Virus record (IMG/VR): IMGVR_UViG_3300047185_000031 | Location: 1 to 44,452 of that record | Strand: one strand, 5' to 3' | Source: a virus | DNA: 44,452 nucleotides | Shown here: positions 14,447 to 42,259 of the stretch, one piece after another | Layout of the letters: each line of letters opens with the position of its first letter | Position numbering within the stretch: position 1 is the first letter of the stretch | Notes under the pieces: model-generated | The model's input: only the letters and a program-made list of their open reading frames with translations | What the model was told of the DNA's origin: nothing | Database searches by the model: none | Position numbers and translations under genes: made by a program

Positions 14447-14457
14447 ACGATCTCCAT

Positions 14458-14526
14458 AGGGACATTTCCCATATTTTTATCAATCCTTATTTTTTTTATA
14501 ATGTCAAAAATATGGGAGGTGTCCCT
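14458..14526. repeat. AT-loop palindromic repeat (GGGACA...TGTCCC family)
   Basis: The arms GGGACATTTCCCATATTTTT and its near-complement enclose an AT-rich loop. It lies between the tape measure start and the frameshift extension of the tail chaperone. Related copies: 31120-31213, 34536-34600, 38739-38804, and a fragment at 1079-1094. Confidence 0.85.
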
Positions 14527-14539
14527 GCTCTTACTGCCA

Positions 14540-15009: not shown

Positions 15010-15034
15010 AGGGTCCTCCTTTTCCCCAAAAGAA

Positions 15035-15140
15035 GTGATCAGTAATCAGTGATCAGTGATCAGTGATCAGTGATCAGTCTTAAGAAGTGACCGGTGATCA
15101 GTGATCAGTAATCAGTAACTGATAACTGATGACTGATTAC
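15035..15140. repeat. TGATCAGT-type short-unit repeat tract
   Basis: About 100 bases of imperfect units such as GTGATCAGTAATCA fill the gap between major tail protein and chaperone genes. The same units recur at 16110-16187, 16878-16938, 17401-17461, 34106-34147, 35256-35278, 35835-35900 and inside the transposase gene. Confidence 0.9.
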
Positions 15141-15145
15141 TTTTT

Positions 15146-16075: not shown

Positions 16076-16109
16076 TTTGTCCTCCTTTGCCCAAAGGGCA
16101 AAAAATAAA

Positions 16110-16187
16110 GTTATCAGTTATCAGTTATCAGTTACTGATCACTGATCACTGATCACTTCTTAAGACTGATTACTGATCACTGATTTA
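16110..16187. repeat. TGATCAGT-type repeat tract
   Basis: Units such as GTTATCAGTTATCAGTTACTGATC fill the gap between the 40-residue gene and the major tail gene. The last bases overlap the stop codon of the small gene. Confidence 0.88.
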
Positions 16188-16877: not shown

Positions 16878-16938
16878 AATCAGTTATCAGTCACCAGTTA
16901 TCAGTCACTGATTACTGATCACTGATTACTGATTACTG
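16878..16938. repeat. TGATCAGT-type repeat tract
   Basis: Tandem units such as CAGTTATCAGTCACCAGTTA lie between the gp10-like and DUF1834 genes. The tract runs up to the stop of the gp10-like gene. Confidence 0.85.
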
Positions 16939-17400: not shown

Positions 17401-17461
17401 TTAGTAATCGGTGATCAGTCATCAGTCATCAGTTATCAGTGACCGATCACTGATCACTGGT
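17401..17461. repeat. TGATCAGT-type repeat tract
   Basis: Units such as GGTGATCAGTCATCAGTCAT lie between the portal and gp10-like genes, extending to the portal stop codon. Confidence 0.85.
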
Positions 17462-19613
17462 TAGTTGTCCTCATTACAATCGTCCCGCGGCAGTGCGGAT
17501 GATAAGGAGGCAAAAGCCCCTGATCCACATAATTCTGAATATTTTCCAGGATGCTCTGGTTCTCCCCGAGGAAGGTCTGGTATTCATCCGGGGTCATGTT
17601 CGCCTGGTCCATCATATTTTTATAGGCGACGTCGACCTGGATGATTTTGCCGTTCATCATGGCGCAGAAGGCGCACTCCTGGGTCGGTTCGATGATTTCG
17701 ATTTCAGCGATTGCGGCATCATGGAGTTGAGATATATGGCTCCAGTTCTGGATCCGGACGACTCCCGTGTCCACGATCCGATTGATCTGGTATCCCTCGA
17801 GATCTGTCATTTGCTGGGAGAGAAGGTTTTTCAGCTCTGCGATCGCTTTCGGATCGCCTGCCCCAAAAAGTCCTTCGCCTCCCTCGAGGTAGCGGGTTTT
17901 TAAGAAATCCATGAGAGCTGCCTGGGCATCGGGATTGTCAATAAATTTTGAAAGATAAAAGTGATCGAGATTCGAGAGGAAGTTGATCGCACGAATATCC
18001 GCACCTTCGAAGCCAACTGTCGCCGTCAAACCTTCTATGGCTTTATATGCCTGGTAGATCGCGCCGACGGATTCGGTTACGGCAATCTTATCGATATTTT
18101 TGTAGGCATCGCCGAGGATCCCTTTGATGGCCGAGGTAAATTCTTCTTCCGAGGGCGGCGAGGACTGATTACGAAGCCATCCCTCGATCTTACTGAGTGC
18201 ATCTTTCTTCAGCGCACCGAGGGAGGGTGCGAGATTTTTCATGTATTCAGATACCCAGTCGGCTTCGAGGAAAGAAGATGAGAAGTTGTGAAGATGGGAA
18301 GTTGTGAAGTTATGAAGGTTTGAATCTTCGCAGCTTCTTATCTTCTTATCTTCGTATCTTCGCATCTTCGCACCTTCGTATCTTCGCATCTTCCTATTTT
18401 CAGCGAACCCGAAGGGCGTTGGGGCCGCCTTCTGGATAAGAACCGGCTCGTCTCCTTCCGGCATCGGAATCGAATAGGTATCATGGATGAATTTCATTGG
18501 TACATCATCAAGCATCGGCAGAATGACCTGGTGAACCTTAGAAAGTTTTTCGAGATCCTCAGGCGGTTCGACCTCCTTCCAGAATTTTGGATATTTTTTG
18601 ACATTCGGAAAATTGTAATCGACGATCCATCTGATCGATTGATCGTTGAGCCATTCGGAGAGGCGGTCGGCATCGGCCTTGACATATTCCTGGCGGACAT
18701 CGGAACGTGCGGTCTCTTCTCCGAGCTTTCCGGGAGTCCCTACGGTTGTGGCCTCCTGGCCGAGGATAACCAACGTAATGGCGGTATTCCAGAAGTTTCC
18801 CCATTTTTCGTAACTATCGACTGAGCTCGTCCGGGCGGCCTCCAGGAGTTCGACTATCATCGTATCAGGCGTGATGATGGCCTGATCGGTCTGCATGGCC
18901 TTCAGGCAATCGAGAAGATCGTCTTGTTTGGCCTTTTCGGTCCCGGGCGGGTATTTTCCCCAGGGAGTGGGTTGGCCGAATTTTTCTAAGAATACGGCCC
19001 AGAACTTGACGCCGTTTTTTTTGAACCAGACAGGCCAGTAGAGTTTGTTCCCGAGGCCCATGCCGAAGGGGTTATTATTCTTCTCACCAAATCGGAAGAG
19101 TTGAAATTTCCGGTCGGGAACTTCTTCGCCTTCGAGCATGTTTTTATAGGTGAGAAGCCGTAATTGATTTTCCAATCCGAATGTGAACCGGCGGGAATCC
19201 CGACCGCGAAATTCCTTGATCCAGATATCCCCTTCGGAATAATCCCACATAATCTCGGAAGCCTTAAAACCCATGAGAATGCCATCGAGGAGCTCCTCGC
19301 AAGCCCTGTCAAATTTGATTTCTTTAAAATTATTTTCTACGAATTCGGCAATCTTGACATCCTGGGTATCTTCGCTTGCAGGCTCGATAGACCATTCTTT
19401 GCCGATAACGGCAAGCTTTCTCTTCTGCATCTCAGAATAGACCCGGTCGTCGCGCTCGAGTTCCGCATAGACCTTAAGTCCCTGCCCCGCGGCCTCGGTC
19501 GAAAGTACCGTATCGGGATTGATCAGAACGCGACCGATGTAGTACTGCGTAATATCGTTCTGGTAAGTCGCGATTTCGTCGGTGTTTGGTTTCTTCTTTG
19601 CTCTGGTTACCAT
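17454..19613 (-). CDS. Portal (Mu gp29-like, DUF935) fused to a Mu gp30-like head morphogenesis domain
   Basis: A 719-residue protein. Residues 1 to about 395 match DUF935 portals (YYIGRVLINPDTVL, KRKLAVIGKEW, then WFKKNGVKFWAVFLEKFGQPTPWGKY, shown in part). Residues about 450-719 resemble the minor head protein family (SPP1 gp7/Mu F), including a CAFCAMMNGK segment and a terminal HPHCRG. In Mu these are two genes, gp29 and gp30. Residues about 405-447 (RKMRRYEGAKMRRYED and following) are encoded by a short-unit DNA repeat inserted in frame in the linker. The start follows AAAGGACAGT. The gene is displaced: it follows DUF1320 rather than the terminase. Confidence 0.88.
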   Translation of the reverse strand: MVTRAKKKPNTDEIATYQNDITQYYIGRVLINPDTVLSTEAAGQGLKVYAELERDDRVYSEMQKRKLAVIGKEWSIEPASEDTQDVKIAEFVENNFKEIKFDRACEELLDGILMGFKASEIMWDYSEGDIWIKEFRGRDSRRFTFGLENQLRLLTYKNMLEGEEVPDRKFQLFRFGEKNNNPFGMGLGNKLYWPVWFKKNGVKFWAVFLEKFGQPTPWGKYPPGTEKAKQDDLLDCLKAMQTDQAIITPDTMIVELLEAARTSSVDSYEKWGNFWNTAITLVILGQEATTVGTPGKLGEETARSDVRQEYVKADADRLSEWLNDQSIRWIVDYNFPNVKKYPKFWKEVEPPEDLEKLSKVHQVILPMLDDVPMKFIHDTYSIPMPEGDEPVLIQKAAPTPFGFAENRKMRRYEGAKMRRYEDKKIRSCEDSNLHNFTTSHLHNFSSSFLEADWVSEYMKNLAPSLGALKKDALSKIEGWLRNQSSPPSEEEFTSAIKGILGDAYKNIDKIAVTESVGAIYQAYKAIEGLTATVGFEGADIRAINFLSNLDHFYLSKFIDNPDAQAALMDFLKTRYLEGGEGLFGAGDPKAIAELKNLLSQQMTDLEGYQINRIVDTGVVRIQNWSHISQLHDAAIAEIEIIEPTQECAFCAMMNGKIIQVDVAYKNMMDQANMTPDEYQTFLGENQSILENIQNYVDQGLLPPYHPHCRGTIVMRTTNQ
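18272..18400 (-). repeat. ATCTTCGC-type repeat tract inside the portal gene
   Basis: Imperfect units of CATCTTCGTATCTTCG (plus strand) encode about 43 residues in the linker between portal and head-morphogenesis domains. The same repeat type fills non-coding gaps at 19625-19702, 20424-20555, 22630-22732, 23570-23670 and 38150-38227. Confidence 0.9.
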
Positions 19614-19624
19614 ACTGTCCTTTA

Positions 19625-19702
19625 GAAGATATGAAGTTATGAAGTTATGAAGTTATGAAGCTGGGAAACTTCTTATCTTCGCATCTTCTCATCTTCTCAT
19701 TT
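19625..19702. repeat. ATCTTC/GAAGTTATGAAGTT repeat tract
   Basis: Short units of GAAGTTATGAAGTTATGAAG and CTTCGCATCTTCTCATC fill the gap between the DUF1320 and portal genes. Confidence 0.88.
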
Positions 19703-20404
19703 TCAGTAATTATCCAGCTTGCCGCTGGACCCGTCGCTCGCTTTACCCATTGTCATTTTCCGATCGTCATTCGTTCGATCCGTCTTGATCTGCTCGTCAA
19801 AGTCGGCCTCGGTGATCGGCGGGAGAGTTGCTTTCCCGGTTGAGATATCTTTCAGATGAGCGATCGCATCCTTGTAATTGTCCTTAACGATCTCGGGCGC
19901 TACACCCCTGCGCGTATAGAGAAAATAAATTGTGATCGTGATTGAATGCTGTTTAATGATTGCAGGGACGGTCGTAAATGGAACTTCGGCCACCTCGCCG
20001 CAATAGGAATCGATCAGGGCATCGGCCTTGGCGATCGCTTCGGTGACCTTATCCGTATCAACTCCATAAACAGTATCGGTAGAATTTGCGGCGATCGTGG
20101 CAACATCAGCATCGGAGCCGATTTTTAACTTTTCGGCCACGAAATCTCCGACCTGGTCGCTGAGATAGAGATCTCCTGCGGCGGTGCCGCCGGCCCAGGT
20201 TCCGGTTGAGAGAACGACTTCTTCAACCAGTGCGTGAGCTCCACTCGTAGCGCCAACGACCGTATCGCCGGCAGCGATGACATGGGTTCCTCCGGAGGTA
20301 TAAGCGAGTTTCTTTGGAGGCCCCGTTCCGGCATCGTTCGTCAACTCGATGATGTTCTTTTCGGGTATCTGCTTTTTGAGATCTGCTAAAGTAGAATAGG
20401 CCAT
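19703..20404 (-). CDS. Mu gp36-like protein (DUF1320) with an inserted domain
   Basis: A 233-residue protein. The ends match DUF1320: MAYSTLADLKKQIPEKNIIELTND at the N-terminus (shown in part) and ITEAIAKADALIDSYC-like and YTRRGVAP segments in the C-terminal half. Residues about 23-106 form an extra glycine- and threonine-rich domain (GGTHVIAAGDTVVGATSG, GTWAGGTAAGDLYLSDQ) of a type seen in other phage structural proteins; without it the length would be about 150, the family norm. Mu gp36 is a head-tail joining protein. Confidence 0.82.
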   Translation of the reverse strand: MAYSTLADLKKQIPEKNIIELTNDAGTGPPKKLAYTSGGTHVIAAGDTVVGATSGAHALVEEVVLSTGTWAGGTAAGDLYLSDQVGDFVAEKLKIGSDADVATIAANSTDTVYGVDTDKVTEAIAKADALIDSYCGEVAEVPFTTVPAIIKQHSITITIYFLYTRRGVAPEIVKDNYKDAIAHLKDISTGKATLPPITEADFDEQIKTDRTNDDRKMTMGKASDGSSGKLDNY

Positions 20405-20423
20405 GTTCGGTCCGTCCTTAACT

Positions 20424-20555
20424 TCAGAAGTTAAGAAGTTATGAAGTTATGAAGTTAGGAAGTTATGAAGTTAGGAAGTTATGCATCTTCTCAATTTCTT
20501 ATTTTCTCAACTTCTCATCTTCTCATCTTCATATCTTCGCATCTTCTCATCTTCA
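20424..20555. repeat. GAAGTTATGAAGTTAGG repeat tract
   Basis: Over 130 bases of GAAGTTATGAAGTTAGGAAG and CATCTTCTCATCTTC units separate the beta-helix gene from the DUF1320 gene. Confidence 0.88.
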
Positions 20556-20556
20556 T

Positions 20557-22203
20557 CTATTGCCCATACCTCATTCCCCCGCCGTAGTAGTATCGTCTTG
20601 TGAACTGGGGAAGTTCATATGCCCCGATGTCTGTTCCATATCCAGAGGGGACTGCATTGCCAGCATAATCCCAATATAAGCCTACACCCACTCCTGCATC
20701 ACGGGCAGGGGAATCTGGTTTGAGATGAAAATCAGTGGCAGAAACAACAAGTGGATCGGCCCATTTACCATTGGTATCAAATCCTTGATCTGATTTATAG
20801 GTCGCTTGGTCATTATAGTGATATATTTTATATGGAGAAGCAACTTCGACATATATTGCTGTTCCTCCAGCACTTTGATACCAAAGATTATAATCACACG
20901 CAGAAATCACGGCTATAGTATCAGGGAAAAAACAAGCAGTCGAAAAATCAATTGCGATATTGTTTTTTATGACAATACCAGAACAGCCTGTTGTACTTCC
21001 CCCTATACCATAAGATACCAATGCTCCAATGTTAGCATTAGATTTATAAACAGTGTTGTTGTAAATATTACAATTTGTTACATAACGATACCACTTAATA
21101 CCAGATCCCATCATGTCGTGGACAATATTATAATAAATATTCCATGAATCTGCGGCATGAGTGGAATTGCCAGAAACATAAATTCCATCACTAACTTTAG
21201 TGGTATCTGCGTAATTTGACGTATCATAAACCAGATTATACTTAATAACACAATTATTAACGGTTCCAGCATCAATATGGAAGTTTAGGTGCTCGTAATA
21301 GACGTTATAAACTTCATTATTATTGACAATGAAATTTCCTTGGTCAACATCTGCATATCCGTAACACTGAATCCCACCACCTCCAATCTCATATACTTTG
21401 TTATAGCTAATAACATGGGACTTTGATATGGCTATTCCAATACCAGGATTACTGCTTCCTCCCAGGGGCCAAATTCCAAAATGATGAACGGTATTCCTTT
21501 GTATCGTCCAATTCGTTGCAGCAACATTTCCGGCTCCTATTCCCTCAATACTTCCAAAAGCAAGTTCCAGGTCTTGAATTGTTATATATATTTTGCTATT
21601 ATGAGTTATACAACGAAGACCCGTGGTTGCTTCCACCGATGTATATCTGGTATCTGGATCAGTAGCCGCAAAACACCAGACACTTGATCCGTCAGAATAC
21701 CAATAATACTCGGCAGTACAGGCTACCTGACTTGCTTGTTTTTGCCCCCAATGTATTGTACCGTCAGAAGCATTGATAAAGAAGAGAGCCGCAACTGTGC
21801 CTGCATAGGTACATTTCCACTGTGATCCATCTACATCCCAGGTTGTTAATTGGGTTGAACCTAAAATTTGAGGTTTAGCCCCGATCCCAAACGACCCGTA
21901 GGTAATAGGAAGACCCACTGATCCAGAAGAAGGGATAGTAAGTCTCTCTCTCCAGGTCTGGCTTTTTCTAAAATAAACAAAATCCCCCGCAGCGAATGCC
22001 TTGAGATTCACATCTGCAATGGTCTTATAAACTGAATCCGTACCCGTATCCGTAGCAAAAGTAACAGGATTATACGTCGTAAAATCAGGAGTAGCTGAGG
22101 CTACATGCACATCGGTGATGGAGGAGTCAACATAATATACTGCCGCCTCACCCCATTGAGCAAAGGCAAAGATCAGAAAGAGGATTAGAAGAAATTTTTT
22201 CAT
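20557..22203 (-). CDS. Exported right-handed beta-helix protein
   Basis: A 548-residue protein with a clear Sec signal peptide (KKFLLILFLIFAFAQWGEA). The rest is rich in N, S and Y with repeated turns (NNEVYNVYYEH, IYYNIVHDMMGSGIKWY, CNIYNNTVYKSNANIG), typical of parallel beta-helix repeat proteins such as polysaccharide lyases and tailspikes. No catalytic set is certain. Base composition is more AT-rich than its neighbours, which suggests transfer. The start overlaps the upstream stop as ATGA. An exported beta-helix in a head operon is unexpected; it could act on cell-surface glycans or be a virion decoration. Confidence 0.75.
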   Translation of the reverse strand: MKKFLLILFLIFAFAQWGEAAVYYVDSSITDVHVASATPDFTTYNPVTFATDTGTDSVYKTIADVNLKAFAAGDFVYFRKSQTWRERLTIPSSGSVGLPITYGSFGIGAKPQILGSTQLTTWDVDGSQWKCTYAGTVAALFFINASDGTIHWGQKQASQVACTAEYYWYSDGSSVWCFAATDPDTRYTSVEATTGLRCITHNSKIYITIQDLELAFGSIEGIGAGNVAATNWTIQRNTVHHFGIWPLGGSSNPGIGIAISKSHVISYNKVYEIGGGGIQCYGYADVDQGNFIVNNNEVYNVYYEHLNFHIDAGTVNNCVIKYNLVYDTSNYADTTKVSDGIYVSGNSTHAADSWNIYYNIVHDMMGSGIKWYRYVTNCNIYNNTVYKSNANIGALVSYGIGGSTTGCSGIVIKNNIAIDFSTACFFPDTIAVISACDYNLWYQSAGGTAIYVEVASPYKIYHYNDQATYKSDQGFDTNGKWADPLVVSATDFHLKPDSPARDAGVGVGLYWDYAGNAVPSGYGTDIGAYELPQFTRRYYYGGGMRYGQ

Positions 22204-22613: not shown

Positions 22614-22629
22614 GATGGCTCCTCTACTG

Positions 22630-22732
22630 AAAAGAACGAAGTTAAGAAATTGGGAAGATATGAAGATGCGTAACTTCATAACTTCTTATCTTCCCATCTT
22701 CTCGTTTCCGTATCTTCTCATCTTCTCTTTGT
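22630..22732. repeat. GAAGATATGAAGATGCG repeat tract
   Basis: Short-unit repeat between two exported-protein genes. A close copy of the segment reading GATATGAAGATGCGTAACTT is found at 23570-23670, so the two gaps were probably duplicated from one another. Confidence 0.85.
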
Positions 22733-22737
22733 TTATA

Positions 22738-23538: not shown

Positions 23539-23569
23539 CTTTTTTCCTCCTCCTTTTTTTTACGAGGTT

Positions 23570-23670
23570 ATGAAAAGAACGAAGTTAAGAAGTTGGGAAG
23601 ATATGAAGATGCGTAACTTCGTAACTTCTTATCTTCCCATTTTCTCATCTTCGTAGCTTCTCATCTTCAT
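23570..23670. repeat. GAAGATATGAAGATGCG repeat tract, second copy
   Basis: Near-duplicate of the 22630-22732 tract, sharing AAAAGAACGAAGTTAAGAA and the following units. It fills the gap between the major capsid gene and the exported protein gene. Confidence 0.85.
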
Positions 23671-23681
23671 TGTTTATATCG

Positions 23682-26690: not shown

Positions 26691-27302
26691 TTATTTTTTT
26701 GGATGTATTTCCAAAAGGTACTCCTCTGCCAATTCGATATTTTCTTTCTGTACCTCGGCGAAGGCCACGCTGAAAGAGAGATCCTTTTTCTCTTTCATCT
26801 TCTTTTCCGTGAGGGCCATTAACTTTTCACTCGCCGTTCCTCCCTTCGATCCATCGTCTCTGGCCACTTCTTTGAAGGTGACGACTTTGGGAAGTTCGGT
26901 AATAAAGTCCTTGAACCATTGGCTCCTGGACTTTTCCTGGCCCTCGGCGAATTTGATCGATTCGCCTGTATCCAAATTGAAGAGAAATTCTTCAATTCCG
27001 GCCTTCATCCAGGCGGGGATGATCTTCCCCTCCTTGGCGAGTCCTTCACAGAAGGAGTGGATCTCGTCCTTCCGGGCCTTGATCTCGATCTCCTTGAGTT
27101 TCTTCTGGGCCTCATCCTTAGCCTTAACCTCTACCTCAATCTTCTTCTGGGCCTCGGCAAAGGCGAGGTCTTTACCGCGCTTCTCGGCGGCCGCGAGATC
27201 GACCTCGGTAAATTTGCTGCCAGGGGATTCCCCGGGCAAGTCTTTTTCCGCCCCGACGATCAGGGTCTTCAATCCACTGAGAAACTCTTTAAACTTTTCC
27301 AT
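26691..27302 (-). CDS. Nested scaffolding protein (Mu gpZ-like internal start)
   Basis: Inside the protease gene an ATG at 27302 follows GGAGGTACTGGT with ideal 7-base spacing, giving a separate in-frame 203-residue product (MEKFKEFLSGLKTL...) made of the charged coiled-coil half (KGKDLAFAEAQKKIE-like region). In Mu the I gene likewise contains the in-frame Z scaffold. The product would form the core around which the capsid assembles and be degraded by the protease. Confidence 0.78.
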   Translation of the reverse strand: MEKFKEFLSGLKTLIVGAEKDLPGESPGSKFTEVDLAAAEKRGKDLAFAEAQKKIEVEVKAKDEAQKKLKEIEIKARKDEIHSFCEGLAKEGKIIPAWMKAGIEEFLFNLDTGESIKFAEGQEKSRSQWFKDFITELPKVVTFKEVARDDGSKGGTASEKLMALTEKKMKEKKDLSFSVAFAEVQKENIELAEEYLLEIHPKK

Positions 27303-27959
27303 ACCAGTACCTCCTTTTTTTTCGACGTGAATTTTACCGGCCTTGCGGCCGATGTATGCACAAATTTTATTTGCACTATCTTCATCGTGGCCTTCGCACG
27401 ACATCATGTGTTCGACACAGCCATCAAACCCGCCAATAAAGGTTCCATCCTCGGCCATGTGAGAACACGCGTTGGCAAACTGGGACAGTCCCGAATCTAC
27501 GCCCCTTAGGGGCCGTAATTCTGGGACAGTCCCTAACTCAGATTCGATGATCCAGGCGGCTTTCTTTTCTCCGAAGGCGGCTTGTTTCAGACCTTTGATG
27601 GCGGGAGGCGTTCCTCCTAAAAATCCGACGTGACGGAGTCCGAGATCCGGATAGAGAGCGATACTAACTTTTTTGTATAGACCTTTGCTGATCCAGTCTT
27701 TGAATTGGTCGACGAGCTGCTTGGGTTTTGCTAAAAGTTTGTCCCCTTCGATCTTTAAGGCCTCGATCCATCCGTAGGCGGGTGAGTCGTGGTCCGGATG
27801 TCCGATAACGATCGGGGCCTCGTGAAGTTCAGGGTTATAGGATGCCACGATCTCGGCAATATCTTTTTCGGTCCAGTCTTTTGTATTGCCCGCCGAGTCA
27901 GTATGGGTACCTGTTTTGAAGATCTCGAACCAGTTCTCCTCATCTCCCCATTTCCCCAT
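26691..27959 (-). CDS. Prohead protease/scaffold (Mu gpI-like)
   Basis: A 422-residue protein. The N-terminal part matches Mu I-type proteases: WFEIFKTGTHTDSAGNTKDW, HEAPIVIGHPDHDSPAYGWI (each about 20 residues) with the conserved GHP and later SIALYPDLGLRHVGFLGG. Residues about 185-213 form a small cysteine/histidine domain (CVEHMMSCEGHDEDS). The C-terminal half is a charged helical scaffold. Residues 142-160 are encoded by a palindromic repeat. The first residues (MGKWGDEEN) come from a TCCCCATT-type repeat, so the true start could differ slightly. It is followed by the cement gene. Confidence 0.86.
   Translation of the reverse strand: MGKWGDEENWFEIFKTGTHTDSAGNTKDWTEKDIAEIVASYNPELHEAPIVIGHPDHDSPAYGWIEALKIEGDKLLAKPKQLVDQFKDWISKGLYKKVSIALYPDLGLRHVGFLGGTPPAIKGLKQAAFGEKKAAWIIESELGTVPELRPLRGVDSGLSQFANACSHMAEDGTFIGGFDGCVEHMMSCEGHDEDSANKICAYIGRKAGKIHVEKKGGTGMEKFKEFLSGLKTLIVGAEKDLPGESPGSKFTEVDLAAAEKRGKDLAFAEAQKKIEVEVKAKDEAQKKLKEIEIKARKDEIHSFCEGLAKEGKIIPAWMKAGIEEFLFNLDTGESIKFAEGQEKSRSQWFKDFITELPKVVTFKEVARDDGSKGGTASEKLMALTEKKMKEKKDLSFSVAFAEVQKENIELAEEYLLEIHPKK
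27481..27535 (-). repeat. GGGACTGTCCC palindromic repeat inside the protease gene
   Basis: The arms CTGGGACAGTCCC occur at both ends of a 55-base element with an inner CCCCTTAGGGG stem. It is read in frame and encodes about 19 residues (VPELRPLRGVDSGLSQF). A related element lies inside the transposase at 41300-41361. Confidence 0.85.
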
Positions 27960-27974: not shown

Positions 27975-29459
27975 TCAGTAATTTACCGCCTTGCGGCTGT
28001 GCGGCATATAACTATCCATCTCCGTGAAAGTGCGCTTATCGCCGGAGGTTTTGAATTCGATGACGCCTATCGGCTGGCTGGCTGCCTGCGTCGCCAGCCC
28101 TTTGGCCCAGAAGTGATCGGCATGGCCGGTCTCCTCGGTTTTGTCAGCATCAAACCGGAAATGACCGGTGCTTGTCTCATATTTTTTTACGCTGTGCAGA
28201 GAATTTCTAATTGCCTGAGCCATTGGGATCCGCGACTGGAGATCTTCGAAGTTCTTCTTAAGTCCCGTGGCCAGTGCCTCCTTGTTGGCTACCGTGAAGT
28301 CGACACCCTCGACCTTGTACTCTCCATAAAAATCAATGCAATCTTCGGCGATGTTTTCCCCGAGTCCCGTTTTGTCAATGCAGGCCCGCCGTGTCTTTGG
28401 ATGGCCGAGTAACCAGAACATGATTCGCCTCTGTACAAAAAAAGGCGCCTTTGAAAGTTCAATTACTGCGCGTGTCCAGGCGATATTGTTTTTATACTCG
28501 TCAAGCCAGATGATAGAAAGATCCCTTCTCCGTGCTACATCAAACCCAACATAGAGATCACCATCGATATCGGGATAGTCTTTAAGGGGAGGAGGGGCGA
28601 TCTTTGTCTTTTTGTAAATTTTGTAGGCCTCCTCCGCATCTTTGATTATTGGAATAAGCCAGGTGGGCATGAAGTCGGCCTCGTCGCTTTCGACTGTCGC
28701 AATCAGCTCGTAGGTCAGCCAGGCTGTTGCCTCATCGATGAATTCGACATCATATTCCTGTGCCCATCCTTCGTCATCCCCGAAGGCTTTTTTGAGGGCT
28801 TCGATCGTTGAAGGTTTGCCGTTCTCATCTTTTAATATGAGGCCCTCCTGAATGGCCTTTGCGATAGGTACGAGATGTTTCGAGTACCCATTATCTTCCG
28901 TGCAGAGTTCATAGAATTTATTTTTCTTTCCGAATGGGGTCGAGATGATCCGGATCTTGTAGCCCCGGGTAATGGTCGGGAATAGCGCACGCCAGATGGC
29001 CCGGCTGTCTTTGTGGAGGGCGAATTCATCAAGTAGAATATTTCCACTCCAGCCACGGGCCGTATCAGGATTGGCTGGAAGGCCGATGATGCGCGACCCA
29101 TTAGAGAAGACGATCTCTAACATCTTATATTCGGCATCTTCGCCCTTGAATGTCGATTCGAGTTCTTCCACGGCGGCACCTATCGCCTTGGCATGGACCT
29201 TGGCCTGGGCGATTAGTTCTTTCGATTGCCGCTCGCCGCGGGAGAGACAGACCCAGAGGACCTTGTGCTCATGACAATCGAGCACGGCCTCGAGAGTGGC
29301 TTCAAAGGTTTTCCCACCCTGGCGCGTCACCCGACCGATTTTGAAGCGGGCACCATCCTCAACCCATCGCTTCTGATAGAGCGTCAATGGCACCGCAGGT
29401 GCCTTGAAGTTCGGAGTTTGGAGTTCGGAGTTCGGAGTTATTTTTTTTCTCCCCATCAC
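27975..29459 (-). CDS. Terminase large subunit (Mu gp28-like)
   Basis: A 494-residue packaging motor. The Walker A position reads RQGGKT (46-51) and Walker B ILLDEF (141-146), with the coupling motif IISTPFG. The nuclease domain begins YVGFDVARRRDLSIIWLDE and continues with RACIDKTGLGENIAEDC. The length fits Mu gp28. Residues 7-18 (ITPNSELQTPNF) are encoded by a TTCGGAGTT-type repeat, so the N-terminus has acquired or been built from repeat DNA. It starts 2 bases after the small-terminase stop. Confidence 0.92.
   Translation of the reverse strand: MMGRKKITPNSELQTPNFKAPAVPLTLYQKRWVEDGARFKIGRVTRQGGKTFEATLEAVLDCHEHKVLWVCLSRGERQSKELIAQAKVHAKAIGAAVEELESTFKGEDAEYKMLEIVFSNGSRIIGLPANPDTARGWSGNILLDEFALHKDSRAIWRALFPTITRGYKIRIISTPFGKKNKFYELCTEDNGYSKHLVPIAKAIQEGLILKDENGKPSTIEALKKAFGDDEGWAQEYDVEFIDEATAWLTYELIATVESDEADFMPTWLIPIIKDAEEAYKIYKKTKIAPPPLKDYPDIDGDLYVGFDVARRRDLSIIWLDEYKNNIAWTRAVIELSKAPFFVQRRIMFWLLGHPKTRRACIDKTGLGENIAEDCIDFYGEYKVEGVDFTVANKEALATGLKKNFEDLQSRIPMAQAIRNSLHSVKKYETSTGHFRFDADKTEETGHADHFWAKGLATQAASQPIGVIEFKTSGDKRTFTEMDSYMPHSRKAVNY
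29406..29440 (-). repeat. TTCGGAGTT repeat inside the terminase N-terminus
   Basis: Units of TTCGGAGTTTGGAGTTCGG encode SELQTPN near the terminase start. The same repeat read in the same frame gives TPNSEL in the transposase and in the membrane protein at 37713-38132. Confidence 0.88.
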
Positions 29460-31110: not shown

Positions 31111-31119
31111 AATCTACCC

Positions 31120-31213
31120 AGGGACACTTTCCATATTTTTATCAATCTGGGGACACCTCCCAATTTTTGTCATTTCTAATTTTTTCGAAAGGTTAAAAAT
31201 TGGGAAGTGTCCC
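31120..31213. repeat. GGGACACTTTCC palindromic repeat, compound copy
   Basis: Contains one left arm, a nested second left arm GGGGACACCTCCC at about 31147, an AT-rich loop, and the right arm GGGAAGTGTCCCT. It looks like one repeat inserted into another. It lies between two late genes. Confidence 0.85.
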
Positions 31214-31218
31214 TTCTT

Positions 31219-34095: not shown

Positions 34096-34105
34096 ATTCT
34101 TCCAA

Positions 34106-34147
34106 TTACTGATGACTGATCACTGATCACTGATTACTGGTTACTGG
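34106..34147. repeat. TGATCACTGAT repeat tract
   Basis: Tandem units such as CACTGATCACTGATTACTGG that overlap the last codons of the 128-residue gene (SNQ stop). The repeat has apparently reached into the coding end. Confidence 0.8.
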
Positions 34148-34520: not shown

Positions 34521-34535
34521 TTCTCCGCTCCGTCA

Positions 34536-34600
34536 AGGGACACCTCCCATATTTTTATCGATTCTCACCTTTAGGGGTTAAAAATATGGGAGGTGTCCCT
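34536..34600. repeat. GGGACACCTCCC palindromic repeat at the GemA 3' end
   Basis: Nearly perfect arms AGGGACACCTCCCATATTTT and complement with a short loop. The right arm encodes the last residues (RDTSHIFNP) and stop of the GemA gene, so the gene end was built from the repeat. Confidence 0.9.
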
Positions 34601-34963
34601 GCGATTTTGCATCGCCTTGAGCCCTTCGACGCACTCATAGGCTTTTCTTCGATCTAAAAAATTTAAATCACTCACCTTGACATGTCTCCAAAGGAATTTT
34701 CTTAGATCTCTGATCTCATGATCGCCTCTATAAATTTGGTGCCAGAGATTTTTGATTTTCCAGATTATTTCATCCGATGGCGCGTAGACATCTTTATGAA
34801 AATCTCTTAATCTACGGATGAAGACCACGGCCTGGTGATTTTCCAATTCCTTTGAACTTTGAACATTGAACTCCCATTTCAGGATGTACCGGTAATCGTG
34901 CTCCTCGATGGCTTTCTCTTTTTTCATGATTTGAATGCGGGCTAAATATTTTTGATCTGGCAT
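34571..34963 (-). CDS. gemA: GemA-like regulator (Mu gp16 family, DUF1018)
   Basis: A 130-residue protein with the GemA layout: an N-terminal LARIQIMKKEKAIEEHDYR (compare KIHIAKKxLGLDDxxYR), and a C-terminal IWKIKNLWHQIYRGDHEIRD (in part) followed by FLDRRKAYECVEGLKAM. Mu GemA modulates host gene expression and DNA relaxation during lytic growth. It lies after Gam as in Mu. The last nine residues derive from a palindromic repeat. Confidence 0.82.
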   Translation of the reverse strand: MPDQKYLARIQIMKKEKAIEEHDYRYILKWEFNVQSSKELENHQAVVFIRRLRDFHKDVYAPSDEIIWKIKNLWHQIYRGDHEIRDLRKFLWRHVKVSDLNFLDRRKAYECVEGLKAMQNRRDTSHIFNP

Positions 34964-35807: not shown

Positions 35808-35834
35808 TTCATTCCTCCCTTTTTCCTAAAAAAA

Positions 35835-35900
35835 GTTATCAGTTACCGGTTATCAGTTATCAGTAAAAACTGGTCACTGATCACTGATTACTGATTACTG
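35835..35900. repeat. GTTATCAGTTACCGG / TGATCACTGAT repeat tract
   Basis: Tandem short units between the Gam and winged-helix genes, reaching into the last codons of the latter. Confidence 0.85.
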
Positions 35901-36250
35901 AATTTCAAAGACAATTGACCCAGATAGTCTTTCATCTCGATTTTTCTGAGCTTCGCCGAGACAAAGAGCGAACTCAGGCCATAGCCATCATAATATTTGC
36001 AGACCTTCTCGATTTCCTCTGCCGTAACCGCCATGAAGTAGCCCCAATGACAAGAACCGATCGGGGTCCCGTGTTGAGTGACTAAGTGTTTAACCGCATG
36101 TCTTATGGTTCTTTCACTGACCTTAAATTCTTCGAGATCACATACCTGCCTAACGAGAGATTCGCGACTGATCGCCTCGGCCTGGCCTCGGTGGCCTTCA
36201 AGAATCAAGAGGATCGATGCTTCAAGATTGTTTAAGGGTTGATCAGTCAT
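35888..36250 (-). CDS. Winged-helix DNA-binding protein
   Basis: A 120-residue protein. LEASILLILEGHRGQAEAIS, then LVRQVCDLEEFKVSERTIRH and AVKHLVTQHGTPIGSC follow the pattern of a winged-helix regulator of the type common in early regions of Mu-like phages. The start overlaps the methylase stop as ATGA. It might regulate early genes or help transposition-replication. Specific role unknown. Confidence 0.7.
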   Translation of the reverse strand: MTDQPLNNLEASILLILEGHRGQAEAISRESLVRQVCDLEEFKVSERTIRHAVKHLVTQHGTPIGSCHWGYFMAVTAEEIEKVCKYYDGYGLSSLFVSAKLRKIEMKDYLGQLSLKFSNQ

Positions 36251-37525: not shown

Positions 37526-37722
37526 CTTCTAATTCCTGCGTGCGCTAATGTGTCATAATAATTCGGACCGGCCGCCGATTTAAAATGACACTCCGGAATA
37601 GGCCCGATATAGTTTGAGCATCGCACAATTGTTGTATGTCTTTTCCAATCGAGGCACCGCGTAGCCCCCCCGGCTTTGTAAGATTTTCTCTCGCACGTAT
37701 AACACGCGATTCTTATTTCCAA
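37522..37722 (-). CDS. Small cysteine-rich protein, possible zinc binder
   Basis: A 66-residue protein with C7, C10 (ACYTCERK), C23, C35 and C45 in the core. It resembles small zinc-binding phage proteins. It overlaps its neighbours on both sides (10 bases upstream, 4 bases downstream). No function assigned. Confidence 0.55.
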   Translation of the reverse strand: MEIRIACYTCERKSYKAGGATRCLDWKRHTTIVRCSNYIGPIPECHFKSAAGPNYYDTLAHAGIRR

Positions 37723-38132
37723 AGCTCTCTCATCGAGAAAGGCCCAAAAACAATGAGACTAAAAATTACCGCTATGGCTATCACTAATGCCCCGATACAG
37801 ACCAGATCAAGAACGGTCCTCCAATTGATACAATCGATGAATTTTCTTATAAATGATTTTTTGGGTGCCTGGATGTGAACCTGCCTCAGAATAAGGGTCT
37901 CCCGTCTGAATTCTCTCACAATGTCTTCGCCAGTGGTTTTGATGGTACTATAGTTCGGATCTCGGATTTCAGAATGCGGAGTAAGATTAAGATGGTTCGG
38001 AGTTCGGAGTTCGGAGTTCGGAGTAAAATACTTTGATAATAAGGGATTCCAGGAGGCCGGATCTCTATACCCCCATTCTCTCAACCTTCGCTCATGTGTA
38101 CTATGAAAACCATTTTCATTTTTTCTCGGCAT
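37713..38132 (-). CDS. Membrane protein with a repeat-derived segment
   Basis: A 139-residue protein. Residues 35-63 (YFTPNSELRTPNHLN and on) are encoded by a TTCGGAGTT-type repeat in frame; a transmembrane helix lies at about 107-130 (VLDLVCIGALVIAIAVIFSL). The N-terminus (HERRLREWGYRDPASWNPLL) resembles a short conserved phage segment. Function unknown. Confidence 0.58.
   Translation of the reverse strand: MPRKNENGFHSTHERRLREWGYRDPASWNPLLSKYFTPNSELRTPNHLNLTPHSEIRDPNYSTIKTTGEDIVREFRRETLILRQVHIQAPKKSFIRKFIDCINWRTVLDLVCIGALVIAIAVIFSLIVFGPFSMRELWK
37996..38024 (-). repeat. TTCGGAGTT repeat inside the membrane protein gene
   Basis: Four units of GAGTTCGGAGTTCGG are read in frame as TPNSELRTPN, the same peptide as in the terminase and transposase. 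Confidence 0.88.
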
Positions 38133-38149
38133 CTTGCACCTCCTTTCTG

Positions 38150-38227
38150 AAAAGAACGAACTTAAGAAGTTAAGAAGTTATGAGGTTGGGCATTTTCTCA
38201 ACTTCATATCTTCTCATCTTCCCACCT
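38150..38227. repeat. AAGAAGTTAAGAAGTTATGAGG repeat tract
   Basis: Short-unit tract of the ATCTTC family (units shown in part) between the winged-helix and membrane protein genes, reaching into the last codons of the former. Confidence 0.8.
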
Positions 38228-38726
38228 TCGGGCTCGCGACGTAGGGCCGCTTAGGGCCGCAGTCGCGAAGTAGCCTCCACTCGACCCCCGGGCCTCCTCC
38301 TGATCTGGAGGGTTGAATGATTCCGATCTTTCGGAGCGATTTTAAATAGGACCTGGCTGAATTTTTCACTACGCCGCCAAGGACGATAAGATCGCGGAGC
38401 GTAAAGAATCCGTCGGCCTTTGTTTTGTTTCGAATAACTGACCACATCCGGTCCTGACCGGTATTTTCTTTGAACCTTGGGGCTATCCTGGCAGCCAGAT
38501 CTTTTCGGTTGGCGACCCGGTATATAATTGAATAGGTTGGGGGCAACCCGGGTCGGTGTTCTTTCTTCCGTTTTTTGATCACCTTGATTAGACTTTCCTG
38601 ACAAAAAACGACGAGAACATCATTTGAATATTTCTTAGAGATCCCCGTATCCCTGGCAATCTGATCCAGCGAAAAAAAACCAGGATACTCGAGTATGGTC
38701 GCTCCAATAGTTCTGAGATTATTCAT
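38214..38726 (-). CDS. Two-domain winged-helix DNA-binding protein
   Basis: A 170-residue protein with two winged-helix-like segments: residues 10-50 (GFFSLDQIARDTGISKKYSN, in part) and 97-145 (FTLRDLIVLGGVVKNSARSY, in part). It follows MuB in transcription order, where Mu-like phages commonly encode small DNA-binding accessories. Start behind GAAGGCAGAA. Its C-terminal end (YVASPKVGR) abuts repeat DNA. Specific role unknown. Confidence 0.65.
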   Translation of the reverse strand: MNNLRTIGATILEYPGFFSLDQIARDTGISKKYSNDVLVVFCQESLIKVIKKRKKEHRPGLPPTYSIIYRVANRKDLAARIAPRFKENTGQDRMWSVIRNKTKADGFFTLRDLIVLGGVVKNSARSYLKSLRKIGIIQPSRSGGGPGVEWRLLRDCGPKRPYVASPKVGR

Positions 38727-38738
38727 TTCTGCCTTCTC

Positions 38739-38804
38739 AGGGACACCTCCCAGATTTTTGTCGATTCATAATTTTAGAATGTTAAAAATCTGGGAAGTGT
38801 CCCT
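38739..38804. repeat. GGGACACCTCCC palindromic repeat
   Basis: Arms AGGGACACCTCCCAGATTTT and near-complement with an AT-rich loop, located between MuB and the winged-helix gene. Its left arm overlaps the ribosome-site region of the winged-helix gene. Confidence 0.88.
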
Positions 38805-38823
38805 ACGTCCCTATGCCTTCTGA

Positions 38824-39498
38824 TTATTTAAAATCTTTCGCTCCAACGATCTTCACCTGGTTCGTCCTGGCGACGGCCTCGGCCCGGTGAATCATGGTGA
38901 TGATCTCGCTGATTTTTCCATCGCTGTCAGCGGCGATCCGCTCAATGGCATCGTCCTGATATTTGACATCGGATACTTCGCTCAAAAAATGCTTCACTCC
39001 CTCGAGATCAAGTTTTTCAAATCTCACGATATCTACAAATCTCCGGTAGAGTCTGCGATTCGACATGAGTTTTTTATCGGCCATCTCTTCGCCGATAAAA
39101 ACCATCGGGCAATGGCAGATATCATGGATATCCCGGAGCGTCTCGAGGATCTCGGGTTTATGGGCGAAGCGGTCCACTTCGTCAAAAATAATTGTCCGGG
39201 GTTTTGAAGCAAGGAACTGACTGATGAGATCGAAATTTCTATCCGTTCTATAGGCCGGAGCAGCTCCGAGTTCCGAGACGATCTTTCTCAGGAGCCAGGG
39301 GCCGGTCATGAGCTCAAGGGTGCGAATCATCACCGCTCCGTTTTGGGCGGCGTAATGAATGGCGGCATCGGTCTTACCGAGGCCCGGCTCGCCTACAGTC
39401 AGAGACATTCTCTCGACACCTTTGAGTTTGTGGTTGATATGATCGATTGCCTGATGGAATTTTTTAACCGATTTAGTAATAACGAACTGATTTTTCAT
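38824..39498 (-). CDS. MuB-like AAA+ ATPase, transposition target activator
   Basis: A 224-residue AAA+ ATPase: Walker A GEPGLGKT (36-43) and Walker B IIFDEVD (103-109), with a sensor region FIGEEMADKKL. It is shorter than Mu B (312) and more like the TnsC/IstB-style B proteins of D3112-type phages. The gene overlaps the transposase stop as ATGA. It binds target DNA, delivers it to the transposase and provides target immunity. Confidence 0.92.
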   Translation of the reverse strand: MKNQFVITKSVKKFHQAIDHINHKLKGVERMSLTVGEPGLGKTDAAIHYAAQNGAVMIRTLELMTGPWLLRKIVSELGAAPAYRTDRNFDLISQFLASKPRTIIFDEVDRFAHKPEILETLRDIHDICHCPMVFIGEEMADKKLMSNRRLYRRFVDIVRFEKLDLEGVKHFLSEVSDVKYQDDAIERIAADSDGKISEIITMIHRAEAVARTNQVKIVGAKDFK

Positions 39499-41774
39499 CT
39501 TTCACCCCCTTGTGCCGTATGTTTATAAAGCGAACTTCTCGACATAAAGTCATCGAGCCATGCCCGATCTTCAGCGGTGATCGAGGTCACCAACTGTTTC
39601 ATCAACCAATCGTATTTTTCATAGTCATCATAGAACCAAGGCCTTCCTGGTTCGGAGTTCGGAGTTCGGAGTTCGGAGTTTTCGCTATGCGCTATGCGCT
39701 CTGCGCTCTGCGTGTCATTGTCAACAAACGGCGATATTTTGACGACTTTTGGTTTCTTGACTGCCTCGATCTTTTGGATCGTTTCTGAAATCTCGGTCTT
39801 CTTCGTTTTGCTCCAATCGATCTGGCCGGCTTGCCTCGAATCGAGTAGGTCGCAGAGTTTGCGTGTCGTGTTCTTAACCTTTTTCTTCAGCCGTATGACT
39901 TCTTTTACAGCCTCCATGTCTTTGGGGTTTTCGCTCTCGGAGGCCATTGGATTGACTTTTTCGATAGGATGCGCCGTGCAGAGAAATTCGTTTTTATGGA
40001 AGATGTAGATTTGTGAAAGATCGGAAAGTGAATACCGGATGACAACCTTATCTTTGAGTCCGTAAAGCGCCTCGTCATACCAATGCCATCCAAGCCAGGT
40101 GACTCCGTTTCGGTGGATATATTTGATCTCCCGTTCCATCATTAGATAAGTAAGCTCATTCGGATCGACACCGGGGCCTTTGCCATCATTAAATATATCG
40201 ATAGGCCTGAGACCATCGCGGCCCCTGGACGGTCTCTCTGCGTAGCGGTCGCGCCACGCGCGGATCAGATCGTTGGTCTCTTCGATTGTGGGCACAAACG
40301 GATTGTGGAGAGATTGGGCATATTTTTCGTTTCTCTTCATTCTGGGAGGCTTATCCTCGATGGATGCGCCGGTATAGGATGGGATCAGACGCTCGAGCTG
40401 CTCGTTGAGGATCCCAAATATCCTTTCAATCGGTTTCGCCTGGGCGTTATAGGGTTGGGCGAAGTGATAGTTAATATTGAGGCGGGCGAACATCCCGGGA
40501 AGCTCGGTATCTTCAAGGGTGATATCCTCGGTGAATATTTTTGCACTGAAGGCTTTGCCATTGTCCAAATAAACCCATTTCGGAATTTTACCCAGGGCGA
40601 GAATGGCGTTTCTAAGGGCTGAGGCGACACATTGAATATTCTCCTCGAGCATGAGCTCCCAACCCAGGGGATAGGAGCTTTTCCAATCCCAGAATAGCAC
40701 CAACGCCGGCCGACAGGCCTTGCCGGTGATGGGATTGATGACTTGAAAGTTGAGCCGGTGCCCATCGGCAACCAGACCATCGCCCACCTCGAGTAATCTC
40801 CAGTCGCGCTCGGCATAAGGAGCGACTTTATCATTGAGTGCCTTCTCTCCCTCGCGGCGGAGGACCCAAATATCGTAATGCTCTTTTTTGAATTGATCGA
40901 CGAACCGGCGAAGAGTCGCCGGTGATGACGGAGACTCGATTTTTTTCTTTTGGAGATAACTTTTTGCGAGGGTAATGGCATAGGCGGTTTTTAGGCGGTT
41001 TTGATGAAGGACCAACGTGAGAAGAAGGTTTTTTTCGTGCTCGGTGGTCTTCGAGATCCCCGCGCCTCCGTATTGAGGCACAAGGCCGGCTATACCATCG
41101 ATTTCATAGGCCCTAATCCATTCATAGAGTGTGGATCGGGAAATTCGACGTATATCATTATATATAGTGGGGTGTGAGACCCCCGAATTATAGAGGTCAA
41201 GAAACTGCCGAACGATCTCGGATTTCGGCCGGTGATTGTTTTTGATTTCTTCCTGGAGGGATTGGAGGAGGGCATAGCGGAGATGAGCGATGCGATTGTA
41301 GGGACTGTCCCTATTTACGGACCCGACCACGGGGAGGGTCGTAGAATGGGGACTGTCCCCATCTTTTTGAATTTCCGGCAGATTTGGCGTCTGGTCACTG
41401 ATTACCGATGACTGATCACTGATCACCGGTTCTCCTTTTACGATTGGCGTTACGACCCGGCACCCCGGCTCGCCGCGATGTACACGATATCGGTCTTTAT
41501 TTTTGGCTTTTTTCTGATCACTGATCACTGATGACTGATCACTGATCACTGATAACTGATCACTATCATTTATATATACCTTGAGCACCATCCCTGCTTT
41601 ACCGCCGCCTTTATTGCTTGGTTCAAATTGGCCTTCCAATTTCCCGCGTTCAAACCATTTCTGAATCGCCCTGACCGTGACCCCCAAAGTCCTCGCCGCC
41701 GTCTCGGTGTCCACCAATATTCTCTTAGAGTTGTCATTCTGAGCGGAGCGAAGAATCTCTGTGTCGACTTTCAT
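39495..41774 (-). CDS. MuA-like DDE transposase with several in-frame repeat insertions
   Basis: A 759-residue transposase. The catalytic triad is D337 (VADGH), D404 (YLDNG) and E450 (KPIERIFG); the 67-residue D-D spacing equals that of Mu A. The N-terminal part holds a helix-turn-helix (VDTETAARTLGVTVRAIQKW, in part). It is about 100 residues longer than Mu A (663) because of repeat-encoded segments: residues 5-15 (TEILRSAQNDN), 71-87 and 115-128 (VISDQSSVISDQ), 138-158, and 688-709 (NSELRTPNSE). All keep the frame. It acts on the terminal sites. Confidence 0.94.
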   Translation of the reverse strand: MKVDTEILRSAQNDNSKRILVDTETAARTLGVTVRAIQKWFERGKLEGQFEPSNKGGGKAGMVLKVYINDSDQLSVISDQSSVISDQKKAKNKDRYRVHRGEPGCRVVTPIVKGEPVISDQSSVISDQTPNLPEIQKDGDSPHSTTLPVVGSVNRDSPYNRIAHLRYALLQSLQEEIKNNHRPKSEIVRQFLDLYNSGVSHPTIYNDIRRISRSTLYEWIRAYEIDGIAGLVPQYGGAGISKTTEHEKNLLLTLVLHQNRLKTAYAITLAKSYLQKKKIESPSSPATLRRFVDQFKKEHYDIWVLRREGEKALNDKVAPYAERDWRLLEVGDGLVADGHRLNFQVINPITGKACRPALVLFWDWKSSYPLGWELMLEENIQCVASALRNAILALGKIPKWVYLDNGKAFSAKIFTEDITLEDTELPGMFARLNINYHFAQPYNAQAKPIERIFGILNEQLERLIPSYTGASIEDKPPRMKRNEKYAQSLHNPFVPTIEETNDLIRAWRDRYAERPSRGRDGLRPIDIFNDGKGPGVDPNELTYLMMEREIKYIHRNGVTWLGWHWYDEALYGLKDKVVIRYSLSDLSQIYIFHKNEFLCTAHPIEKVNPMASESENPKDMEAVKEVIRLKKKVKNTTRKLCDLLDSRQAGQIDWSKTKKTEISETIQKIEAVKKPKVVKISPFVDNDTQSAERIAHSENSELRTPNSEPGRPWFYDDYEKYDWLMKQLVTSITAEDRAWLDDFMSRSSLYKHTAQGGER
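39649..39713 (-). repeat. Two adjacent repeats inside the transposase C-terminus
   Basis: GTTCGGAGTTCGGAGTT at 39649-39681 followed by CGCTATGCGCTATGCGCTCT units at 39683-39713. Together they encode ERIAHSENSELRTPNSEP between the catalytic core and the MuB-interacting end. Confidence 0.88.
41300..41361 (-). repeat. GGGACTGTCCC palindromic repeat inside the transposase
   Basis: GGGACTGTCCC occurs near both ends as the same-strand palindromic core, around CCGACCACGGGGAGGGTCG. It encodes residues 138-158 and is related to the element in the protease gene (27481-27535). Confidence 0.85.
41391..41430 (-). repeat. TGATCACTGATC repeat inside the transposase (copy 1)
   Basis: Read in frame as PVISDQSSVISDQ. 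It is identical in type to the intergenic TGATCACT tracts. Confidence 0.88.
41515..41564 (-). repeat. TGATCACTGATC repeat inside the transposase (copy 2)
   Basis: Read in frame as SDQLSVISDQSSVISDQ, in a linker after the N-terminal DNA-binding part. Confidence 0.88.
41731..41761 (-). repeat. TCATTCTGAGCGGAGCGAAG repeat at the transposase N-terminus
   Basis: Encodes EILRSAQNDN. This peptide and its DNA belong to an interspersed repeat that I recall from many bacterial genomes. It lies before the HTH domain. Confidence 0.8.
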
Positions 41775-41776
41775 TT

Positions 41777-41797
41777 AATCCCTCATTCCCTCATCCC
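41777..41797. repeat. TCCCTCATTCCCTCATCCCC tract before the transposase
   Basis: Its minus strand (GGGGATGAGGGAATGAGGGA) provides the GAGGGA ribosome site of the transposase and encodes the end of the upstream gene. Confidence 0.7.
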
Positions 41798-42259
41798 CTG
41801 AAGTTTCGCCTCAACAGCTTTTTCCTCCTCGGTGAGTTTTCTTTTCTCATCCTTGATCCGTCCGAGTTTCATTAAGAGGGCATCCTTGCTCTCAATCACA
41901 TATACCCCGAGGAGATCCGCCAGAATCCGGAAAGGTTCAAGATTCCCCACCACATGACAAAAGGCCGGTAAATAACACGCCGGAAATCTATAGACACCCT
42001 CGCGACTCTCGGCCGTCCACGAATCGATCATCGACTTCGTGATCTCGAAGCCCAGGACCTCCGACATTTTGGCTGCAATTTGGAACCGCGAATGCGGACA
42101 ATCCTTAATGGCCCGGGAAATGGCATCTCGAAGTTGGAGGTCTATATTAAATGTAGAGGAATCGCTTATTTGAGGTCGGAGATCTTTTAAAAGATCGAGT
42201 AGAGAGAGTTGGTTAGGATTGCGATTTTTAATCATAAAATTGCTATTGATTTCGCTCAA
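41783..42259 (-). CDS. Early protein upstream of the transposase, probable DNA-binding
   Basis: A 158-residue protein. AISRAIKDCPHSRFQIAAKM, then SEVLGFEITKSMIDSWTAES and RFPACYLPAFCHVVGN form an HTH-like pattern that I associate with a small conserved protein upstream of MuA in Mu-like phages of diverse bacteria. The start at 42259 is TTG with no ribosome site; an ATG at 42235 (MIKNRNPNQL) is an alternative. Its end nearly touches the transposase. Likely an accessory of early regulation or transposition. Confidence 0.62.
   Translation of the reverse strand: MSEINSNFMIKNRNPNQLSLLDLLKDLRPQISDSSTFNIDLQLRDAISRAIKDCPHSRFQIAAKMSEVLGFEITKSMIDSWTAESREGVYRFPACYLPAFCHVVGNLEPFRILADLLGVYVIESKDALLMKLGRIKDEKRKLTEEEKAVEAKLQGMRE

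Follow-up and report, generated by a model that had tools for sequence, protein, structure and literature searches.

The transposase gene of a Mu-like phage contains five peptide-coding segments written in repeat DNA, and these were very probably gained as host-type interspersed repeats were captured in frame again and again, under a filter for an open reading frame and for protein disorder, with near-neutral growth of the linkers. The gene lies in an IMG/VR virus record of 44,452 bases, all of which was analyzed and is referred to here as the window. In related phages, the same linkers hold other repeats, and the five families of the window gene are dispersed in the genomes of one bacterial order.

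Five Repeat-Coded Segments in an Intact MuA-Type Transposase

Genes encoding a Mu-type portal (PF06074), a terminase, and a GemA-like protein identify the window as a Mu-like phage. Its transposase contains DDE_2, Mu-transpos_C, and HTH domains (Pfam; PF09299, 2e-11, and PF02914, 3e-5, both passing the cut-off) and matches the PHROG 310 transposase (1e-95). The catalytic triad D337/D404/E450 is intact and invariant across 49 homologues. An AlphaFold2 model (mean pLDDT 79) gave structural matches to TnsB and to MuA transpososome chains. With MuA (PDB 4fcy), the protein has in common the fold of the core and end-binding domains, the DDE core, and an adjacent MuB-like ATPase, whereas the structural alignment has ~18% identity and the tethers of the window transposase are repeat-coded. 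The protein probably works. A heavy repeat load can mark relaxed selection, but a decaying pseudogene still free of stops is very improbable, given 759 open codons, the intact triad and MuB-like partner, and the specific change of in-frame stop slots described below.

The original prediction placed five segments of the transposase in repeat DNA from at least four families found elsewhere, with no frame broken. Their coordinates matched (Table 1), five families were counted, and the ORF (39495-41774) is unbroken across all 759 codons. That the repeats occur elsewhere held within the window for three families, namely the TNATCAG heptamer (several intergenic places), TTCGGAG (29407-29438 and 37993-38024), and GGGACTGTCCC (27482-27533), but not for the CATTCTGAGC repeat and the CGCTATG heptamer, which within the window are confined to the transposase gene. 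Since 0 of 100 shuffles had any match to CATTCTGAGC or CGCTATG, chance is excluded for both. A search of Rfam gave no match at the gathering threshold. The first segment may be a leader upstream of the true start, if translation begins at TTG20 or GTG21, both of which align beside the start of L009. Before ATG1, the likely ribosome-binding region (41775-41800) is built of an 8-nt repeat (GGGATGAG GGAATGAG GGATTAAATG).

Table 1. Transposase, its partner, and repeat copies in the window
Feature	Position	Strand	Evidence or remark
TniB/AAA ATPase (MuB-like), transposase neighbor	38824..39498	-	Pfam; PHROG 296 DNA transposition protein
MuA-type DDE transposase gene, 759 aa	39495..41774	-	ORF, Pfam/PHROG, structure matches, triad
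Segment 1, aa 5-15 TEILRSAQNDN, CATTCTGAGCNNAGCGAAGAATC repeat, possible 5' leader	41730..41762	-	Repeat DNA match
Segment 2, aa 71-87 SDQLSVISDQSSVISDQ, TNATCAG heptamer array, in-frame slots TTA and TCA	41514..41564	-	Repeat DNA match
Segment 3, aa 115-128 EPVISDQSSVISDQ, second TNATCAG array, in-frame slot TCA	41391..41432	-	Repeat DNA match
Segment 4, aa 138-158, palindromic element GGGACAGTCCC...GGGACAGTCCC	41301..41363	-	Hairpin z -3.3
Segment 5, aa 688-709, CGCAGAG heptamers then CTCCGAA heptamers	39648..39713	-	Repeat DNA match
Second GGGACTGTCCC hairpin element copy, in frame inside ORF 26691-27959	27482..27533	-	Hairpin z -5.1
CTCCGAA-type heptamers forming N-terminal tail (TPNSELQTPN) of terminase ORF 27975-29459, if first start used	29407..29438	-	
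CTCCGAA heptamers, in frame, N-terminal part of 139-aa ORF 37713-38132	37951..38024	-	
~75-bp hairpin element with AGGGACACCTCCC ends, four copies	14450-14528, 31112-31216, 34528-34606, 38731-38808		z -6.8 and -9.5 for two copies folded
Octamer arrays GAAGTTAT/CTTCTCAT	18249-18418, 19616-19745, 20410-20579, 22628-22736, 23563-23679, 38148-38256		Mainly between genes, as inverted pairs
Intergenic CTGATNA arrays	15034-15141, 16109-16184, 16881-16938, 17403-17459, 34105-34146, 35834-35901		

Repeats also occur in other parts of the window. The ORF that harbors the second hairpin element copy is without a Pfam family; only its position and pattern suggest a Mu I-type protease/scaffold. The GemA-like ORF (34571-34963) ends in one of the ~75-bp elements, which supplies its C-terminal tail and stop codon, and the paired octamer arrays are possibly terminators. 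The intergenic CTGATNA arrays often consist of TNATCAG units followed by CTGATNA units, forming large hairpins, a design also found in genome G400 (L199-L238).

Different Repeats Occupy the Same Linkers in Related Transposases

A single-sequence scan of viral_contigs found no relative, while an alignment query gave 369; 80 viral loci were compared along with 80 bacterial loci. The closest among these were L009 (50% identity), L089 (54%, residues 157-703), L240 (45-48%), and L010 (42%). In a five-way alignment, the N-linker has two insertion points and the C-linker has one. At the first point (after VYIND), where the window gene has a TNATCAG array, L009 has a GGGACAGTCCC element, L240 has ATTCAAG-like heptamers, and L010 has GATCAGGG-like units. 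At the second (after G-x-P), TNATCAG in the window gene corresponds to CGCAGAG in L009 and to no array in L240. In the C-linker, the window gene has CGCAGAG and CTCCGAA, L010 has PSPRPSPARGEG repeats, and L009 is free of repeats. Both linkers of L014 are occupied by the GGGACAGTCCC element. The CGCAGAG element of the window gene C-linker is identical at 32 of 33 nt to that in the N-linker of L009 and is read in the same frame at a non-homologous place. Different families at the same points, the CGCAGAG element at non-homologous sites, and the arrangement in L014 require repeated independent arrivals.

Alignment with homologues had been proposed as the way to define insertion points and target duplications. 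It located the three points, with boundaries good to within a few codons at 42-54% protein identity; neither a DNA-level empty site nor a target duplication was found. The original prediction had also stated that the same segments in homologues would make them ancestral protein sequence. The segments proved not to be common to homologues, the closest of which carry other families at the same points, or none. That ancestral sequence resembles the repeats by chance is hardly credible: no supporting point was found, the segments are absent or replaced in the relatives examined, and bacterial genomes contain dispersed copies of these DNA families.

The arrays would have entered as insertions, or a native seed (e.g., GGTGATC) would have expanded at the site. 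Growth of all arrays in place, by replication slippage from native seeds, with their likeness to dispersed repeats reflecting a common 7-nt slippage bias, is possible but unlikely. At site 2, the window gene reads GAACCGGTGATCAG and the array-less L240 GAGCCGGTGATCTGG, so that GGTGATC may be native, and period 7 dominates the tandem repeats of G400 (213 of 472 arrays in 650 kb). Exact family sequences nevertheless recur at unrelated places and in unrelated genomes, and the CGCAGAG elements at non-homologous sites in two phages are nearly identical. Slippage also cannot produce the hairpin element or the CATTCTGAGC repeat, neither of which is a tandem array.

An apparent internal stop in L239 sits upstream of the ORF and outside any repeat. 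In L022, a 33-nt piece of the transposase core (aa 290-301, REGKKALND) is repeated just downstream of the gene.

Repeats Are Concentrated in Predicted-Disordered Linkers

Stretches with AlphaFold2 pLDDT below 50 cover residues 1-15, 74-154, and 686-707, which are the repeat-coded stretches and their surrounds, plus residues 656-658 and the last four residues. The prediction that the segments lie in linkers outside the DDE core therefore agrees with the model, in which all five are beyond the folded domains. In MuA, the HTH and end-binding parts and the domain III and tail parts are flexibly linked, which would explain the tolerance of repeats.

The same distribution was found across 167 homologues, in which repeats present elsewhere on their own contig (at least 36 bits) fell in linkers in 23 of 26 cases and in domains in 3, with 1 in the reversed-contig control; these counts are lower bounds because the viral and bacterial contigs are short. 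Linkers make up 27% of the length (binomial p 7e-11 for 23 vs. 3, although the independent number is smaller than 26 because several segments were counted per gene). At the loosest cut (32 bits), 26 linker and 10 domain repeats were found against 3 and 6 in the control (p 0.05). Second transposase copies were left out of the linker and domain counts, and the apparent repeats of L162 and L165, which look like such copies, were excluded as insertions. Examples in linkers include six segments in L098, GGAAGGG heptamers in L035, a CATTGCGAGCGAAGCGAAGCAATC repeat in L016, and others in L049 and L043. The proposed tolerance of linker growth is thus upheld by the location of the segments in predicted-disordered linkers and by the other repeats that the same linkers hold in relatives, and the effect of the repeats on the transposase is probably near neutral.

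In-Frame Slots of the Heptamer Arrays Are Free of Stops

The TNATCAG unit meets the reading frame at every third unit (21 bp), and its TNA slot becomes a stop when N is either G or A. Because neighboring units do not meet the frame, the heptamer has a built-in selection test. In the transposase arrays, the in-frame slots are TTA, TCA, and TCA (0 of 3 stop-like), whereas all 9 off-frame slots are stop-like (Fisher p 0.0045), an excess that cannot separate filtering at insertion from later mutation, because an open ORF necessarily has no stops at its in-frame slots. Across the intergenic TNATCAG arrays of G400 and the window, 392 of 422 slots carry G or A. The probability of three clean slots by chance is 0.017 on the window-only intergenic slots (32 of 43 stop-like, 11 of 43 not) and 0.0004 with G400 included. 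None of 57 sense-frame readings of intergenic 49-nt TNATCAG arrays is open. The off-frame excess shows that an unfiltered array is unlikely to be open. The original prediction that repeats are filtered by frame is supported by the closed intergenic arrays and by the transposase, where every in-frame slot is changed and every off-frame slot is stop-like. The first array has a 21-nt periodic, coding-adapted form encoding (L/S)SVISDQ. Among the 121 arrays of G400 and the window, placed with gene calls from a simple hexamer-scored finder, 103 are intergenic, 16 overlap gene ends, and only 2 lie inside genes, both in the window transposase.

Heptamer Arrays in Other Phage Proteins

Scans of viral_contigs yielded 154 distinct arrays, including those of the window, of which 14 lie within long ORFs and are flanked by 30 codons or more on each side. 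In these 14, 0 of 20 in-frame slots and 41 of 54 off-frame slots are stop-like; open ORFs were selected, so the in-frame count carries no information and the off-frame count does. All embedded arrays have the TNATCAG orientation and none CTGATNA, as expected from the fixed TGA of the latter. The carriers include Mu-type portals (L259 and L271), a portal-Mu F fusion (L320), terminases (L279, twice; L288, L300, and L308), and a Mu-like I protein (L314), among others. Seven of nine placed arrays lie outside Pfam envelopes (3.4 expected), several of them exactly between two domains. A scan without selection for stop-free slots found 6 of 90 viral arrays embedded vs. 0 of 82 in G400 (p 0.03). In the related terminases L300 and L308, a heptamer array at the same point is followed by different repeat-like inserts between the N and C domains.

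Positive selection of the segments, for longer or sticky linkers that alter assembly or target choice, is improbable. The same tethers have been filled again in several relatives, as such selection might produce, but the sequences differ wholly between relatives, some of which have none at a given site, and the same heptamer arrays occur in terminases and portals with other jobs; length tolerance alone explains the pattern. In a wider view, which we regard as doubtful, disordered linkers of transposable-phage proteins (MuA-type transposases, portals, and terminases) would be general, reused landing zones in which host-type repeats persist and evolve a coding-adapted form lacking stops at every third heptamer, and phages would collect repeats and carry them between bacterial hosts.

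The Repeat Families Are Dispersed in One Bacterial Order

Each of the five families has dispersed copies in one bacterial order represented by 17 genomes, and one of its members, G143, carries all five. CTGATNA arrays (at the 3- or 4-unit level) were found in several of the 17 genomes, TTCGGAG in 9, CGCTNTG in 8, CATTCTGAGC, dispersed, in 4, and the paired GGGACNGTCCC element in 3, while the same patterns read backwards gave zero. The GGGACAGTCCC element of segment 4 is also present in L009 and L014 and in bacterial genomes G084 and G143. Among bacteria, the transposase has its closest relatives in this order too, namely L089 (Deltaproteobacteria bacterium K_DeepCast_250m_m2_302) and L240. This order probably includes the phage host. 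Counting against this placement, none of the 17 genomes contains the 8-mer GAAGTTNN arrays of the window; the GAAGTTAT/CTTCTCAT octamer arrays were likewise not detected in them. G400 was considered as a near-host on the basis of 130 heptamer matches and rejected, since its G+C content is 58% vs. 47%, TTCGGAG falls outside its main families, and the order of G001 fits better. The extreme period-7 load of G400 comprises many heptamer families, almost all intergenic.

Discussion

Recurrent in-frame capture of repeats would proceed as follows. Several unrelated short repeat families, comprising heptamer tandem arrays and hairpin elements, would have colonized the phage genome, possibly seeded by native partial matches (e.g., GGTGATC at site 2, also in L240). 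Copies reaching the transposase would survive only if frame-keeping, stop-free in frame, and within a disordered tether, with selection acting against frame breaks after arrival. The tethers in question would join the N-terminal HTH domain to the end-binding domains and domain III to the C-terminal tail; because they hold different repeats in related phages, they appear to be recurrent landing zones. Apart from the length they add, the peptides most likely serve no specific function.

Comparable behavior is known from cellular genes. Rickettsia palindromic elements (RPE; Ogata 2000/2002, reviewed in PMC10969869) are short dispersed elements that have inserted into many protein genes without breaking the frame, at positions that the fold tolerates. 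The transposase repeats are similarly dispersed outside the gene (all five families), absent at the same site in homologues, and located where AlphaFold2 predicts no order, and segment 4 is likewise a palindromic hairpin element. Unlike the RPEs, which are ~150 bp and occur in Rickettsia, the phage segments span 30-65 bp, and a single gene holds five families unrelated to one another, stop-prone heptamer arrays among them. The likeness would be one of behavior only, and we do not claim membership. TAACTGA heptamer direct repeats occur in cellular genes of Beggiatoaceae, cyanobacteria, and Bacteroidetes, are mostly intergenic, and are translatable in reverse orientation (LSVISYQ), mostly at protein peripheries (MacGregor 2015, PMC4679880). 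The heptamer is the same, CTGATAA being another register; the phage peptide is LSVISDQ/SSVISDQ, and arrays in G400 and the window are mostly intergenic too. However, the form found here is the degenerate CTGATNA/TNATCAG (N = A, C, G, or T), with strict TAACTGA as one variant, and it lies in the transposase of a Mu-like phage, where precisely the in-frame slots lack stops, as well as in terminases and portals of other phages. Enterobacterial RU repeats (Delihas 2007, PMC2759123) are mobile intergenic families of 103-168 bp that fuse in frame with enterobacterial genes. Such in-frame fusion of mobile repeats with genes resembles the present case, but the abstract of PMC2759123 mentions no recurrent landing sites in one protein family. 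A partial literature search, which is weak evidence, found no paper on repeats in Mu-like transposases or phage genes. New here are the presence of the repeats in phage proteins, five families in one gene, landing sites common to relatives, and the slot-by-slot stop pattern.

That the repeats in these linkers differ from one related phage to the next implies that mobile short repeats keep lengthening phage proteins where this is harmless. Short bacterial repeats thereby have a route into essential phage proteins. The same tethers, filled independently with different sequence, offer a natural experiment on linker growth, and phages may help explain the presence of the same heptamer families in distant bacteria, a question raised in PMC4679880.
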